This document shows, in pieces, positions 21,074-28,242 of a DNA stretch of 53,959 bases. Made by a program: the position numbers and the translations under genes. The DNA is taken from positions 1 through 53,959 of the forward strand of contig RECF01000067.1 in NCBI GenBank assembly GCA_007694145.1, read 5' to 3'. This DNA is from Acholeplasmatales bacterium. GTDB lineage: Bacteria; Bacillota_I; Bacilli_A; Izemoplasmatales; Izemoplasmataceae. The notes below the pieces were generated by a model, which was given only the letters and a program-made list of their open reading frames with translations, did not search any database and had not been told where the DNA came from. How positions within the stretch are numbered: position 1 is the stretch's first letter; each line of letters begins with the position of its first letter.

Positions 21074-22264
21074 ATGGGTTTACTGCTCTTTTTCCTCCTC
21101 TATCTGGGTGTCGTCTTGTTCAGGATGGTTTTTGATTACCTGAATGCAACCGTTCAGACCCACCCAGATGACCGACGCGGTTATCAAGCCGCACAGTGTC
21201 AAAACTTGGTTAACCTCACGGCAGTTTTTGCCGTTTTTTTTGCTGTACCCGAAGCGCTTGAAGGGTATCGCATCATCTTCATCATCGGCGGTTGGGCCCT
21301 GGCATCACTTTGGGTCATGATTGGCTTTGACGGCCATCGTGCCCGCCCGTTGAGACGACGCCTTCGGACTTATCTTATGACCGGGTTACTCAAAGGCATG
21401 GTGCCTACTGTGCTGGTTGTCGGGTTTACGTGGCTCTTTTTTGCCGGGGGTCCGTGGTTGCCGTATCCACTGATGGGCCTGATTTTGCTGGGTCTCATCG
21501 GAACCGGTTATGCCGTGCTTTTTACTGTGGTTGTCCCCCGCCTTTTTGACAAGAAACCGTATGTACGACCGTTCGCACCGACGCCCGCTTTTAATGAAAA
21601 TCCGCGTGTTTATGTGCTGAAAAGTCGGCGTCTGCGTTTGCCGATCAATGCCCTTTACACCGGCTTTTTCGGTCGACACAGCATTTGGGTTTCCCCGGCG
21701 CTGCTTGGCACTTTGACGCACGCGCAAATCGACGGCATCCTCGCCCATGAAATCGGCCATCGTCGTGGGGGACACTTGTATGTTCGGCTGATTTTTCTAG
21801 TTTTTGGCATCGCCATGGTGTTGTTGACTGCGGCGTTGGCATTTACGAGTCCCCTTGTTGGCAACGTGGGCTTGCCGATGACTTTTCCTTATCAGCTTGC
21901 GGTGTTTCTCGTACTCTATCAGATTGCGGAGACCTTTGTAGAGAGTCTATTCTACCGGCTGTCTCATTATCAAGAGTTCGCCGCGGACCGGTATGCGGCA
22001 CATTTAGGCAGAGGCGCTGCTCTCGCCCAGGCGCTTTTTGTGATTGCCCACCATCAGGTTGAGCCGCTGTTGCATCCGCTTTCAAGACGTTGGCAGTTTT
22101 CTCATCCAGACCACGCCGACCGACTGAAAGCTTTGCGAAAAGCCGCGTCATTGGATGCGGACTATGGCTTTGTTTTCGAATGTCACCTCAAGCGGCCACG
22201 TCGTTCTTTTCAACCGGCACCACCTCAAGAACCGCTCCCTGCAGCCCACGTCGAAACAACTTGA
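21074..22264 (+). CDS. M48 family membrane metallopeptidase (Ste24-like)
   Basis: 396-residue membrane protein with zinc protease motif HEIGHRRGGH near residue 225 and a third-ligand region FAADRYAAHLG about 70 residues later. Several membrane helices precede and flank the catalytic part, as in CAAX prenyl protease 1/Ste24 and HtpX relatives. Likely role: cleavage of membrane-associated proteins or peptides. The start follows GAGGCG 11 bases after the YjbQ gene, so the three genes from 19390 form one unit. Specific substrate unknown. Confidence 0.88.
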   Translation: MGLLLFFLLYLGVVLFRMVFDYLNATVQTHPDDRRGYQAAQCQNLVNLTAVFAVFFAVPEALEGYRIIFIIGGWALASLWVMIGFDGHRARPLRRRLRTYLMTGLLKGMVPTVLVVGFTWLFFAGGPWLPYPLMGLILLGLIGTGYAVLFTVVVPRLFDKKPYVRPFAPTPAFNENPRVYVLKSRRLRLPINALYTGFFGRHSIWVSPALLGTLTHAQIDGILAHEIGHRRGGHLYVRLIFLVFGIAMVLLTAALAFTSPLVGNVGLPMTFPYQLAVFLVLYQIAETFVESLFYRLSHYQEFAADRYAAHLGRGAALAQALFVIAHHQVEPLLHPLSRRWQFSHPDHADRLKALRKAASLDADYGFVFECHLKRPRRSFQPAPPQEPLPAAHVETT

Positions 22265-22271
22265 AACATGT

Positions 22272-22330
22272 CCCCCTATGAAATCACTTTAAGTATGCTT
22301 CAAATGATGATATAATACGACTATAGGGGG
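22272..22330 (+). promoter_or_regulatory. extended -10 promoter flanked by CCCCCTAT/ATAGGGGG
   Basis: TATAAT at 22311-22316 preceded by TGA (extended -10); -35 is poor. The exact inverted repeat CCCCCTAT (22272-22279) and ATAGGGGG (22323-22330) brackets the promoter, and its right arm forms the ribosome site. A pair of operator half-sites or chance; eight bases only. Confidence 0.5.
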
Positions 22331-22337
22331 TGAAAAC

Positions 22338-23249
22338 ATGAAAACAAGTATTGCCGCCGTACCACTGATTTATCCGTTACCCATGGCCATCGTAGGTGTT
22401 GAGAATAACACCGGCACGTTTTTTGCGACCATTCAGAATTTGACTATCATCAGCCGTGAACCGGCTGTATTTGCCATGGTCATCGGCTCAAAACGGCACA
22501 TGCACCGGCATCTTGAGATTGGTACACGCTTCAGCCTCAACATGCCCACGACGACTATGATTGACAAGGCGGATTTGTGCGCCAGTATTTCCAGCGATAC
22601 GTTTGACAAGGCAAAACTGTTCGACACCGCCCATGTCAAGGGTGTCCCGGTCATTGAAGCATGCCCGGTCGTCCTGCTTGCTGAAGTGACTGACATGACC
22701 ACCATGCACGATCATACATTTTACATTTGTGCAGTCAAGGATACCTTACTTGAAGAACGGCTACCCATTGACGGACATATCCCGTCATTGAATGTTCTCG
22801 ATCCCATCCTGTACGGTCTCGATGACAAGTACTATACGGTCGGTCGTGTCATCGGTAAAGCATCGAAAGAAGGACAGTCTTTGTATCAGAGTGTGCGCAA
22901 AACCATGGCACCTCAACCCTATTCCTTCCACTTCAAGTACAAAATTTGCAAACTCAAGAATCAGGGTGTCTCCTACAAGGATTTGTCGGACACATTCAAT
23001 GTCTACCATGAAACGATTGAAGACTGGTATACGCTTTACACCCTCTTTGGTCGTAACGGCCTGACCAAAAAAATGGCGAACCGTCTTGCGGCCAGTCGAT
23101 TTACCAAGGCTGAAAAGGCCGAAATGGTCCGTCAAATTATGCAGGGTGAAAAAACGTACCGCGATGTTTGCGGGGAAAATATGGTGAGCTTGTCGCGGCT
23201 TAAAAACTGGGTCAAAAAGGCGCGAAAAGAGAAGAAACGCGCAACGTAA
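22338..23249 (+). CDS. flavin-reductase-like domain fused to IS150/InsJ-type HTH
   Basis: 303-residue two-domain protein. Residues about 1-190 fit the flavin reductase/flavoredoxin FMN-binding fold (FATIQNLTIISREPAVFAMV, FSLNMPT, VLLAEVTDM). Residues about 195-300 carry two helix-turn-helix units: GVSYKDLSDTFNVYHETIED ... FGRNGL and KTYRDVCGENMVSLSRLKNW. This closely follows OrfA of IS150/IS3 elements, including the W-x-LY-x(4)-G-x-x-GL signature. No OrfB or inverted repeats are present, so the HTH looks domesticated. A redox- or flavin-sensing regulator of the next operon is the natural guess. It is monocistronic, with its own promoter and terminator. Confidence 0.75.
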   Translation: MKTSIAAVPLIYPLPMAIVGVENNTGTFFATIQNLTIISREPAVFAMVIGSKRHMHRHLEIGTRFSLNMPTTTMIDKADLCASISSDTFDKAKLFDTAHVKGVPVIEACPVVLLAEVTDMTTMHDHTFYICAVKDTLLEERLPIDGHIPSLNVLDPILYGLDDKYYTVGRVIGKASKEGQSLYQSVRKTMAPQPYSFHFKYKICKLKNQGVSYKDLSDTFNVYHETIEDWYTLYTLFGRNGLTKKMANRLAASRFTKAEKAEMVRQIMQGEKTYRDVCGENMVSLSRLKNWVKKARKEKKRAT

Positions 23250-23273
23250 GACTGGCGGAAGCCAGTCTTTTTT
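23248..23273 (+). terminator. terminator overlapping the stop codon
   Basis: AAGACTGGC-GGAA-GCCAGTCTT (23248-23269) followed by T. The stem begins inside the TAA stop of the flavin/HTH gene. Confidence 0.88.
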
Positions 23274-23315
23274 GCAGGACTATTTGTAAGGCGCTACGGT
23301 TCTTTTAAACCCACA

Positions 23316-23344
23316 TTGTCGCTGTAAGCGCTTTATGATATAAT
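23316..23344 (+). promoter_or_regulatory. promoter of the amine/proline dehydrogenase operon
   Basis: TTGTCG (23316-23321), 17-base spacer, TATAAT (23339-23344) with TG one base upstream. A cre-like site fills the spacer. Confidence 0.8.
23323..23336 (+). promoter_or_regulatory. cre-like site (catabolite control)
   Basis: TGTAAGCGCTTTAT matches 12 of 14 positions of the CcpA consensus TGWAANCGNTNWCA and lies between -35 and -10. Bound CcpA would repress. A CcpA-like gene is present at 39806. Confidence 0.55.
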
Positions 23345-23375
23345 GTGTGCGTATGACAGTTGAACGAGGTGACTT

Positions 23376-23681
23376 ATGCGCATTCATCAACATCCCATTT
23401 TGGATTTCGGCGAGCGGAAGACGATTCGGTTTTCCTATAACGGTCAAACGCTTGAAGGCCTTGAAGGGGATACCATTGCGTCAGCGCTTCATGCGCATGG
23501 TGTGAAAAAACTTAGCGAAAGCATCCATCTAAAACGCCCACGGGGCTTTTATTGTGCCATCGGCAATTGTGCTTCCTGTAATATGGTTGTCAACGGTGAG
23601 CCCAATGTGCGCACATGCATCACACCGTTAGAAGACGGTATGGATGTTCGCCTGCAAGAAGGAAAGGGGCGAATTCGATGA
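23376..23681 (+). CDS. 2Fe-2S (Fer2_4) subunit of multi-subunit amine dehydrogenase
   Basis: 101-residue iron-sulfur protein resembling the N-terminal Fer2_4 domain of sarcosine oxidase alpha, HcnA and OoxA subunits. The cluster-ligand cysteines lie in FYCAIGNCASCNMVV, with a fourth at VRTCITPL. It passes electrons from the flavin dehydrogenase subunits. The start follows GAGGTG. First gene of a tightly packed six-gene operon whose last member is P5C dehydrogenase. The stop overlaps the next start. Confidence 0.88.
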   Translation: MRIHQHPILDFGERKTIRFSYNGQTLEGLEGDTIASALHAHGVKKLSESIHLKRPRGFYCAIGNCASCNMVVNGEPNVRTCITPLEDGMDVRLQEGKGRIR

Positions 23682-24760
23682 AGCACGTCGAAGTCCTGAT
23701 TATCGGTGCCGGTCCAGCCGGCTTGTCCGCTGCGGATGTACTGCTTGAAGCGGGTGCGGAAGTCGCCCTAATCGACCGCAGTGACCGACCGGGTGGCCAG
23801 CTGACCAAGCAAACCCATATGTTTTTCGGATCGCAAGAACATTATGCCTCTAAGCGCGGCATCGAGATTCTTCATGTCTTGTACGACAAAATCAAAGACC
23901 ATCCCCGTTTGCATATGTTTTCCGAAACCACTGTGGCCGGTTTGTATCCTGACCGGGTGGTTGCTTGCGTAAGCGGTCAGCGTTACTTCACCATCCAAGC
24001 TGACATCATCATTGTCGCAACAGGGGCCAGTGAGAAGTCATTGCCTTTTGAAAACAATGATTTGCCGGGTGTCTACGCTGCCGGTGCCGTTCAGACACTG
24101 ATGAATGTCTATGGTGTCAAACCAGGAGACAAAGTTCTGATGGTCGGCAGTGGCAACATCGGTTTGATTGTCGCCTATCAACTCATGCAGGCGGGGGTCA
24201 AGGTGCCCGTGCTTGTTGAAGCGGCAAAGACCATCAGTGGCTACCATGTTCACGCATCGAAAATCAGACGTTTAGGCGTGGACATCAGAATGCGAACGAG
24301 TATCAAACGCGCCCTAGGGACAGATCATGTTGAAGGCGCACAAATCTGGCAGTTGGATGCGCGTTGGCAAGGCATCGCCGGGACAGAAGAGACCATCGAG
24401 GTCGATACAATCTGTCTTGCGGTCGGTCTGTCACCCCTGACCGAACTGCTTCAGCAACTCGGCGCAGAGGTCATCTATATTAACGAACTCGGTGGGCATG
24501 TGCCCCGTTTAAATGAAAAGTTTGAAACAACCGTAGAAGGTGTCTATGCTTGCGGCGATGTCGCCGGCATTGAAGAAGCTTCAAGTGCGATGATCGCTGG
24601 GAAGATTGCCGGTCTTGAAGCCGCACTGAAACAAGGTTATGCCCTTGAAGATGCCCAAGCCCGTCAAGCGGCACTGCATACATCACTGAAGACATTGCGC
24701 AGTGGACCACACGGTGAGAAAATCCGCAAGGGCCACGCGAGACTGGGGGCGCGGACATGA
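23678..24760 (+). CDS. FAD/NAD(P)-binding oxidoreductase subunit
   Basis: 360-residue flavoprotein. It has an N-terminal FAD motif GAGPAGLSAADVLLEAG, a second dinucleotide-binding motif GSGNIGLIVAYQL, and the C-terminal YACGDVAGIEEASSAMIAGK that closes over FAD. It corresponds to the alpha-like subunit of multi-subunit amino-acid dehydrogenases (HcnB, OoxA, dye-linked proline dehydrogenase alpha). It probably relays electrons to NAD(P)+ or another acceptor. The frame is open 21 codons upstream, but ATG 23678 overlaps the previous stop (ATGA). Confidence 0.88.
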   Translation: MKHVEVLIIGAGPAGLSAADVLLEAGAEVALIDRSDRPGGQLTKQTHMFFGSQEHYASKRGIEILHVLYDKIKDHPRLHMFSETTVAGLYPDRVVACVSGQRYFTIQADIIIVATGASEKSLPFENNDLPGVYAAGAVQTLMNVYGVKPGDKVLMVGSGNIGLIVAYQLMQAGVKVPVLVEAAKTISGYHVHASKIRRLGVDIRMRTSIKRALGTDHVEGAQIWQLDARWQGIAGTEETIEVDTICLAVGLSPLTELLQQLGAEVIYINELGGHVPRLNEKFETTVEGVYACGDVAGIEEASSAMIAGKIAGLEAALKQGYALEDAQARQAALHTSLKTLRSGPHGEKIRKGHARLGART

Positions 24761-25239
24761 TTGAGAAAACCGGAGTACCAACACGACAAGACGTCCTTGA
24801 GCAGTTTCCAGAGCGGATTGTTTTGGTCAAACCCAAAGCGATTATTGAATGTTACAAGGAGATTCCCTGCAATCCGTGCAGTACGAGTTGTCCCTTTGAT
24901 GCCATCCATATCCCTGAAGACATCAACATCCGGCCGGTCATCGACTTCGACGCCTGTACAGGTTGCGGTATTTGTGTCTATCAGTGTCCGGGTTTGGCCA
25001 TTACCGTCATGCAGGTCAAGGCGGACAAAGTCATCATGAAGATTCCTTATGAGTTTACGCCGCTACCGCAAGTCGGTGCGCAACGTAATGTGCTCGATCG
25101 CACAGGGTCTGTGATAACTAAAGGCACCATTCTCAAAGTTCAAACGTCACCGGTTCAGGAGAAAACCGCCCTGATCCATATCGAAATAGACAGTGCGTTT
25201 TTATACGATGCCATTACCATCGAGGTGACCCATGGATAA
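24757..25239 (+). CDS. 4Fe-4S ferredoxin-like subunit
   Basis: 160-residue electron-transfer protein. Cysteine sets PCNPCSTSCPFDA and ACTGCGICVYQCPG suggest 4Fe-4S binding, with an unusual first spacing. The C-terminal 70 residues have no recognised motif. It sits between the two flavoprotein subunits and overlaps both neighbours, so it is almost certainly part of the same complex. Confidence 0.82.
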   Translation: MIEKTGVPTRQDVLEQFPERIVLVKPKAIIECYKEIPCNPCSTSCPFDAIHIPEDINIRPVIDFDACTGCGICVYQCPGLAITVMQVKADKVIMKIPYEFTPLPQVGAQRNVLDRTGSVITKGTILKVQTSPVQEKTALIHIEIDSAFLYDAITIEVTHG

Positions 25240-25516
25240 CATGAATCCCAAGGAAATCGTGATTTGCCGCTGTTCCGATGTGACGCTGGCTGATTTGTTC
25301 GCCTTGTTTGAACAAGGTTACCGGACCTTTGAAGAACTGAAACGCATCAAGCGAGTCGGTATGGGGCCTTGTCAGGCCAACACGTGTGGGAAAATGGTCC
25401 AGTGGGAAATTGCCAAGTACTTTGACATACCGCTTGAAGAGGCGCTGTTTCACAACTTGCGTCCGTTCACGCTCGGCATCAAACTCAAACACATCAAGGA
25501 GGGAAGCGACACATGA
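25232..25516 (+). CDS. BFD-like 2Fe-2S subunit
   Basis: 94-residue protein with Cys residues in VICRCSDVT and GPCQANTCGK, the four-cysteine pattern of BFD/Fer2_BFD domains. In sarcosine-oxidase-like complexes this domain is usually joined to an FAD subunit. Here it is a separate gene overlapping its neighbours. Role: intramolecular electron relay. Confidence 0.85.
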   Translation: MDNMNPKEIVICRCSDVTLADLFALFEQGYRTFEELKRIKRVGMGPCQANTCGKMVQWEIAKYFDIPLEEALFHNLRPFTLGIKLKHIKEGSDT

Positions 25517-26664
25517 TGACACAAGCCAACGTCGTCATCATCGGTGGTGGTATTTCCGGTGCGAGTATCGCCTACCATCTTGCTGAGGCCGGTGTCAAAG
25601 ACATCGTCGTGCTTGAGAAGCATTACATGACGTATGGGGCAACGGGGCGGTGTGGTGCCGGTGTGCGCCAACAGTGGGGCACCCGTATGAACTGCCTGCT
25701 TGCCAAAAAGAGTGTGGCCTTTTTCGAAAAAGCTCAGGAGATTCTCGCCTATGACGGTGACATTGAGTTCAAACAGGAAGGGTATCTAATTGTCGCATCC
25801 GATGAAGCGGAAGCGAAGACATTCGCCGCCCATGTCGCCTTGCAAAATAGTCTCGGCATTCCAGCCCGTGTCTGCACCAAAGAAGAAGCGCGGGCCATCG
25901 TGCCACACTTGAACACCGATGCCATCCATAGTGCGACGTTTTGCCCAACCGACGGGCATCTCAACCCTTTTACAATGACCGATGCGTTTTTCAAAGCCGC
26001 CAAGCGACTTGGTGTCCACTATTATGACCATACGGCTGTCACGGATATCCGTCGTCAAAACGGCCAAATTGAAGGCGTGATGACTCAACATGGCTTTATC
26101 AAGACCAACACAGTCGTGAATGCGGCCGGTGGTTGGGCGAAAGACATCGGGGCGATGGTTGGCCTTGATATCCCCGTCTATTCGCGTAATCATGAAATTC
26201 TTGTGACCGAACCCGTCGAAAAAATGCAAGGACCAATGGTCATTTCGTTTTCAAAGAACATCTATTGCCAACAAACCCCGCATGGTGCATTCATCATGGG
26301 TCGCGGTGACAAGGATGCACCTAAAGGTCTCGACATGGGCTCAAGCTGGCAGTTTCTCGAAGCGATGGCCAAGACTGTCAGCGATCTGTTGCCACCGGTA
26401 GGGGAACTGCGCGTCATCCGCCAGTGGGGCGGTCTTTACAACATGTCCCCCGACCATCAACCCATCATCAGTGCTAGCCGCGATGTGCCGGGCTTTTACA
26501 TCGCCTGCGGCTTCAGTGGGCATGGCTTCATGCTCGCGCCAATGACCGGGCTGTTAATCCGTGAAATGATTCTCGGACAAACACCGTCCATGCCGCTTGA
26601 AGCTTTGTCGCTTGAACGGTTTGAAGGCCAAGAAATCGAAGAACTAGAAACCAGTGTCGTATAG
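25513..26664 (+). CDS. FAD-dependent amine dehydrogenase catalytic subunit, probably L-proline dehydrogenase beta
   Basis: 383-residue DAO-family flavoprotein that probably oxidises the substrate's C-N bond. FAD motif GGGISGASIAYHLAEAG at the N-terminus, TGRCGAGVRQQWGT near residue 50 as in sarcosine oxidase beta subunits, and GFSGHGFMLAPMTG near the C-terminus contacting FAD. AAGGAGG precedes ATG. Sequence alone fits sarcosine, proline, opine or glycine (HCN) substrates. The adjacent P5C dehydrogenase makes L-proline the best guess, since it uses the product of proline oxidation. Confidence 0.8.
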   Translation: MMTQANVVIIGGGISGASIAYHLAEAGVKDIVVLEKHYMTYGATGRCGAGVRQQWGTRMNCLLAKKSVAFFEKAQEILAYDGDIEFKQEGYLIVASDEAEAKTFAAHVALQNSLGIPARVCTKEEARAIVPHLNTDAIHSATFCPTDGHLNPFTMTDAFFKAAKRLGVHYYDHTAVTDIRRQNGQIEGVMTQHGFIKTNTVVNAAGGWAKDIGAMVGLDIPVYSRNHEILVTEPVEKMQGPMVISFSKNIYCQQTPHGAFIMGRGDKDAPKGLDMGSSWQFLEAMAKTVSDLLPPVGELRVIRQWGGLYNMSPDHQPIISASRDVPGFYIACGFSGHGFMLAPMTGLLIREMILGQTPSMPLEALSLERFEGQEIEELETSVV

Positions 26665-26685
26665 TATCTTAAAGGAGGAACCATC

Positions 26686-28242
26686 ATGGGAATGTATCCT
26701 TACCAAACCGAACCATTGCAAGATTTCACCAACCCTGAGGTCATCACCGCCTACCAGGCGGCCTTAAAACGTGTCGAGGCATCACTTGGAGGTGAGTATC
26801 CACTCATCATCAACGGTGAACGTATCAAAACCAACCAGACGTATGTGTCAACCGACCCCGCGAACCATCAAGTGACCATCGGAACCGTCCACCAAGCCAG
26901 TGAAGAACACGCTGAAGCGGCCATGCAAGCGGCACGCCAGGCATTTGAATCCTGGTCGAAAGTACCGGCAACGGTACGGGCCGATGTCTTGTTCAAGTCC
27001 GCCGCAATTTTGAGGCGTCGTCGCAACGAGTTCAGCGCCCTGATGACCAAGGAAGCCGGGAAACCGTATGCTGAAGCGGATGCCGATACGGCAGAAGCCA
27101 TTGATTTCCTTGAATACTATGGCCGTCAAATGCTTGAGCTTGAAACCATCGATCACAAAGTCTTGAGCCGGCCGAACATCGAACGCAATACGTACCGTTA
27201 CATCCCGCTTGGTGTCGGTGCGATTATCTCACCTTGGAATTTTCCGCTGGCCATCTTTGCCGGCATGACCTGTGCGGCGATTGTCACCGGCAATACAGTA
27301 TTGGTTAAACCCGCTGTCACCACCCAAGTCATCGCCTACAAGTTCATCGAAGTGCTCGAACAGGCAGGACTCCCGCGTGGCGTCGTCAACTTCATTCCCG
27401 GTGATGGGCCGGAAATCGGTGAGTTCATGGTCAACCACCCTCAAACCCGTTTTGTCAGCTTTACCGGCAGCAAACAGGTTGGCTGCACGATTTATGAGAG
27501 CGCCGCCAAAGTGCGCAAAGGCCAAATTTGGCTTAAACGCGTGATTGCGGAAATGGGCGGCAAAGACGCCATCATTGTCGATGAAGGTGTCGATCTTGAC
27601 ATGGCTGCCGAAGGCATCGTTGGTAGCGCCTTTGGCTTCAGTGGCCAAAAGTGTAGTGCTTGCAGTCGGGCCATCATCCACGAAAAAGTGTACGATGCAC
27701 TCGTTGAAAAAATCAAAGACCGCACCAGTAAATTGACGGTAGGCGACCCCGCTGATCCAGAAACATTCGTCGGTCCCCTCAACGATAAAAAAGCGTTCAA
27801 GAAAGTGAGCGAGTACATCAAAATCGGGAAAAAAGAAGGTCGTTTATTAATCGGCGGCGGTTCTGATGACAGCCAAGGTTGGTTTATCCATCCCACCGTG
27901 TTTGTCGATGTCGAACCCACGGCCCGCATCATGCAGGAAGAAATTTTCGGTCCAGTCTTGGCTGTCACAAAGGTGGCCGATTTCGATGAGGCGCTGTCTG
28001 TAGCGAACAATACCGAGTTCGGTCTGACAGGGGCGGTATACTCTAATAACCGGATGCACCTTGAAAAGGCCCGGGAGACATTCCATGTCGGCAACCTGTA
28101 CCTCAACCGTAAATGTACCGGGGCCATCGTCGGCTATCAACCGTTTGGCGGCTTCAATATGAGCGGGACCGACTCCAAAGCCGGGGGACCGGATTACCTC
28201 ATTTTGCACATGCAAGGAAAAACCGTTTCCGAAGCGCTCTGA
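26686..28242 (+). CDS. rocA: L-glutamate gamma-semialdehyde (P5C) dehydrogenase
   Basis: 518-residue aldehyde dehydrogenase matching RocA-type P5C dehydrogenases in length and sequence. Motifs: [13 protein letters not shown], the catalytic Glu region [11 protein letters not shown], and the catalytic Cys context [13 protein letters not shown], which is characteristic of this subgroup. It oxidises glutamate semialdehyde (open-chain P5C) to glutamate with NAD+. AAAGGAGG gives a strong ribosome site 21 bases after the FAD subunit gene. With the five preceding genes this would convert proline to glutamate. Arginine-derived P5C is an alternative source. Confidence 0.92.

Follow-up and report, generated by a model that had tools for sequence, protein, structure and literature searches.

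The fusion gene and its two domains

The window, that is the whole stretch of 53,959 nucleotides analysed here, belongs to a genome of 1.86 Mb in 94 contigs that groups with Candidatus Izimaplasma, the named relatives being metagenome assemblies. On its forward strand lies a gene (22338–23249) that forms a single unbroken frame with an ATG start, encodes a protein of 303 amino acids and has orthologues in 15 further genomes. It is preceded on the same strand by a gene for an M48-type peptidase (21074–22264; PF01435, 9.5e-21) and followed, again on the same strand, by an operon (23376–28242) encoding a 2Fe-2S protein, an FAD/NAD oxidoreductase, a ferredoxin, a BFD-like protein, a DAO-family oxidoreductase and an L-glutamate-gamma-semialdehyde dehydrogenase. 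Read from the sequence, the promoter and ribosome-binding site of the gene (22288–22337, forward strand) consist of TTTAAG (22288–22293), standing 17 bases upstream of a −10 box, TATAAT (22311–22316), and of GGGGGTG (22326–22332). An intrinsic terminator (23248–23273, forward strand) follows, with a 9-bp stem, a 4-nt loop and a T run (hairpin 23248–23269, −15.2 kcal/mol, z −3.0). Boxes of the TATAAT type and G-rich ribosome-binding sites are seen again 5' of the fusion genes of the 16 relatives, and terminator-like stems are also present downstream of many of them.

The N-terminal part of the protein (residues 1–183; 22338–22886) is a flavin-reductase/flavoredoxin-like domain. In a Pfam scan of the window protein, Flavin_Reduct (PF01613) matches residues 12–141 (7e-16; 59.1 bits against a cut-off of 27), and the closest relative of solved structure by sequence is the Methanosarcina flavoredoxin 3bnk (4.3e-16, residues 10–184). 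The domain aligns over its full length with the flavoredoxin/flavin-reductase split barrels (PF01613; 3bnk, 2d5m), and it keeps S66, N68, P70, D79 and D90-K91 of the flavin-domain motif, positions common to most stand-alone flavoredoxins of related genomes. The solved flavoredoxins, however, are of about 180–200 amino acids and have no helix-turn-helix (HTH) tail, whereas the window protein has one; five of its relatives, moreover, have lost the motif positions.

That tail (residues 197–298; 22926–23231) consists of two HTH units of IS150/IS3 OrfA type. HTH_Tnp_1 (PF01527) matches residues 253–298 (1.3e-11; 44.9 bits against a cut-off of 24.1), HTH_28 (PF13518) matches in two stretches (36.3 bits, 5.9e-9), and HTH_23 (PF13384) matches residues 205–242 (3e-4), rising above its cut-off in a scan restricted to the C-terminal piece; together, these transposase-type profiles span residues 205–298. 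No MarR family match was found in the window protein by Pfam at E values up to 1. NCBIfam likens the first part to the StyB flavin reductase and the second to IS630 and IS3 transposases, in all cases below threshold.

The AlphaFold model of the protein is weak (mean pLDDT 58.7), and the fold search made with it rests on this low-confidence model. It consists of a beta barrel followed by two three-helix groups at 197–237 and 257–302, and the split-barrel fold of Flavin_Reduct appears to be present in it. The top matches in the fold search are flavoredoxins and flavin reductases (3bnk, 2.8e-11), the third-best being the C1 reductase of Acinetobacter baumannii (5zyr/5zc2), aligned over about 290 columns. 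The preliminary description of this locus, made from the sequence alone, had named an FMN-type flavin reductase or flavoredoxin joined to an IS150-type OrfA double HTH, and the profile matches above cut-off, the structural relatives and, as far as so weak a model allows, the predicted fold agree with it on both halves.

The likeness of the C-terminus to IS150-group OrfA proteins of the InsJ type, with which it shares the double HTH_28/HTH_Tnp_1 architecture, raises the question of whether the gene is part of a live or recent insertion element. This candidate was rejected. No OrfB transposase frame was found next to the gene, the following gene being that for the 2Fe-2S protein; no terminal or flanking inverted repeats were found around it; and no second copy of the C-terminus is present in the genome. 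The absence of OrfB and of inverted repeats, like the possession of a promoter and terminator of its own, had already been remarked upon, and each of these points holds. Thus, of the components of an IS3/IS150 element, only the double HTH is present, and, unlike an IS150-group OrfA, it is found here in single copy, at a fixed locus and joined to another domain. The gene lies outside any mobile element.

Distribution and conservation of the fusion

Among 49 genomes of the family, 16 carry the fusion; they belong to seven genera of uncultured soda-lake bacteria. Eleven carriers (genera g1, g3, g7, g12 and g13) have an intact-looking flavin domain, and the remaining five (g14 and g16) have a shorter, diverged N-terminal domain. 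In all 16 the fusion gene lies directly downstream of the M48 peptidase gene, its constant upstream neighbour, which is itself preceded by YjbQ and XRE-TPR genes in nearly all carriers whose contig extends that far. The preliminary description would have fallen had no relative shared the fusion; its presence in 16 family genomes speaks in its favour. The 16 orthologues, together with the strong purifying selection under which the gene evolves, also rule out an accident of assembly or insertion, and a chance fusion was rejected on the same grounds.

Outside the family, whole-protein profiles detected no fusion in samples of 90 genomes of the order, 395 of the class and 392 of the phylum, and the same searches yielded only stand-alone flavoredoxin-type proteins; as these genomes are samples, rare fusions elsewhere are possible. 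Nor was the fusion found on plasmids or phages, the records of which match the flavin part only. A profile of the C-terminal domain gave only weak matches outside the family (E 6.7e-9 and above), and at each of the three such loci that were read, an OrfA-type frame lies beside an OrfB-type frame, both recognised by eye. Judged by these sequence matches, the nearest outside relatives of the fusion C-terminus are the OrfAs of insertion sequence elements, as the preliminary description had supposed. In a tree of the M48 neighbour, meant to count gains and losses of the fusion, fusion-less genomes are scattered and the branches are very long. Two unmatched frames 3' of the M48 gene in fusion-less relatives were considered as replacement genes; they resemble nothing and were taken to be spurious antisense frames.

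Unequal divergence of the two halves

Between the window's own genome (G000) and G001, dN is 0.155 for the N-terminal domain and 0.046 for the C-terminal domain, dS being saturated. The same inequality is seen between the two subgroups of carriers, where identity is 54% in the C-terminal domain and 17% in the N-terminal domain; in all 55 between-subgroup pairs the former is the better conserved. Within the g14/g16 group, the N-terminal 150 residues have a mean identity of 21%, as against 62% for the HTH part. In the first HTH unit E-T-x-x-D-W-Y is invariant among all 16 fusions, as are V-S-L-S-R and a later W-x-K in the second. The IDKADLC stretch and the Flavin_Reduct motif positions are absent from the five g14/g16 members, whose N-terminal domains fall below the reach of the Flavin_Reduct profile in Pfam; profile–profile comparison (probability 96, E 3.2e-9) nevertheless still ties these domains to the flavin domain. 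The missing motif positions suggest that flavin binding may have been lost in these members, and we read the pattern as a DNA-binding function that was probably kept while the input domain changed. An eroded flavin domain beside a retained HTH part in five relatives makes it unlikely that flavin sensing is the constant function of the protein.

A parallel in architecture is the C1 reductase of p-hydroxyphenylacetate 3-hydroxylase from A. baumannii (5zc2), which likewise consists of an N-terminal flavin reductase and a C-terminal HTH-type domain in about 300 amino acids. The C-terminal domain of C1, however, is of MarR type and controls catalysis, as an effector domain through which the enzyme inhibits itself (PMC10816480), whereas that of the fusion is a transposase-type double HTH. 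An HTH fold alone is therefore no proof of transcription regulation, since in C1 such a domain autoinhibits its own enzyme (PMC10816480). By analogy with C1, and given its high rank in the fold search, the fusion protein might itself be a flavin reductase or flavoredoxin, with HTH units that control it from within the same molecule or mediate oligomerisation. We consider this unlikely: the flavin domain has been eroded in five members and the HTH kept, which is the opposite of what is expected of an enzyme with an accessory tail, and the invariant residues lie within or close to the predicted recognition helices.

Our current working hypothesis, to which we assign a probability of roughly 0.6, is that the fusion is a DNA-binding regulator of the one-component type, specific to this lineage, whose input domain is flavoredoxin-like. 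An input-type and a DNA-binding-type domain are united on one chain, as in regulators of that class. Output would come from the C-terminal double HTH, a type of module that in IS150-group elements recognises the element ends, and the N-terminal split barrel would probably bind FMN or a related ligand and dimerise, tuning the binding of DNA. DNA binding, dimerisation and ligand sensing by the protein are all inferred. As to origin, a possible course of events, which we put forward tentatively and as somewhat short of an even chance, begins with a single early event in one Izemoplasmatales family, in which a flavoredoxin domain acquired the DNA-binding module of a transposase OrfA and a flavin-sensing one-component regulator of new architecture arose. 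The flavin domain of a daughter lineage would later have degenerated into another kind of input domain, independent of flavin, with the DNA-binding part retained. No description of this pairing of a flavin domain with an OrfA-type HTH was found in the literature searched, most subscription journals lying outside its reach. The locus appears to be an instance, in bacteria, of a DNA-binding module from an insertion sequence that persists as a stable host gene in union with a cofactor domain, and the coexistence of intact-looking and eroded members makes the role of the flavin domain in DNA binding directly testable.

Neighbouring operon and transporter gene as candidate targets

The operon at 23376–28242 encodes a split sarcosine-oxidase-like dehydrogenase with iron-sulfur subunits together with L-glutamate-gamma-semialdehyde dehydrogenase, a combination that in the light of known pathways points to amino acid catabolism of the proline type. 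It had been proposed that the fusion is a redox-responsive regulator dedicated to this operon, and proximity lends this some colour: the operon directly adjoins the fusion in genus g1 (the window genome and G001) and, of the 11 members whose flavin domain looks intact, 10 have it no more than one gene away; in the remaining member the contig breaks off. A survey of co-occurrence, however, separates the two in both directions. One fusion-less relative (G009) has, at the same site, the M48 gene, a transporter gene and the operon, and in all five g14 and g16 members the fusion has no operon beside it; in most intact members, moreover, an ACR3/SBF-like transporter gene intervenes.

The operon promoter (23316–23344, forward strand) comprises TTGTCG, a 17-nt spacer and an extended −10 box, TATAAT, and between the −35 and −10 boxes sits the palindrome CTGTAAGCGCTTTAT (23322–23336), which resembles a CcpA cre site. 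A cre-like match with no more than two mismatches is found in nine of ten such operon promoters, one of the nine being poor, and fusion-less G009 is among those that have it. This palindrome, which we place outside the fusion's own system, lies within the region (23280–23375) that had been put forward for DNA binding by the fusion. Given the conserved site and the ten LacI-type DNA-binding domains encoded in the genome, the operon is likely to have a regulator of another kind. The two-way separation and the cre-like site thus weaken the case for an operon-specific regulator, which we regard as improbable; that the fusion's job is specifically to control this operon is not our view and is not supported by the comparison of genomes. 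Of the earlier interpretation, then, the two domains, their fusion, its conservation and the OrfA relationship of the C-terminus stand, and the role as redox controller of the adjacent operon is left without support.

The ACR3/SBF-like transporter gene, directly downstream of the fusion in genera g3, g7, g12, g13 and g14 and so the next gene in most relatives, is a further candidate target. A conserved block, TACAAAC..TGCATN5TTG, stands immediately before its −35 box, and the second half of the block is kept even in G000 and G001, in which the transporter gene lies elsewhere in the genome. The block initially appeared promising as the operator of the fusion, being enriched in 14 of 14 genomes with the fusion (null 2.8); it is, however, also enriched in 10 of 14 control genomes without it (null 2.9), and can therefore not be assigned to the fusion. 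It is retained in fusion-less G037, where the M48 and transporter genes appear to be direct neighbours, and no transporter gene was found in g16, which has the fusion. Regulation of the transporter gene by the fusion is accordingly the least probable of the roles considered. A search 5' of the −10 box of the fusion genes for a shared operator gave no common word above shuffled controls. Across the family, the promoters of the ACR3/SBF-like transporter genes share a GTTTG....CAAAC-type palindrome together with the TGCATN5TTG block, the copy in the window genome lying away from the fusion (G000:C90, near 68020), which in most relatives it adjoins.
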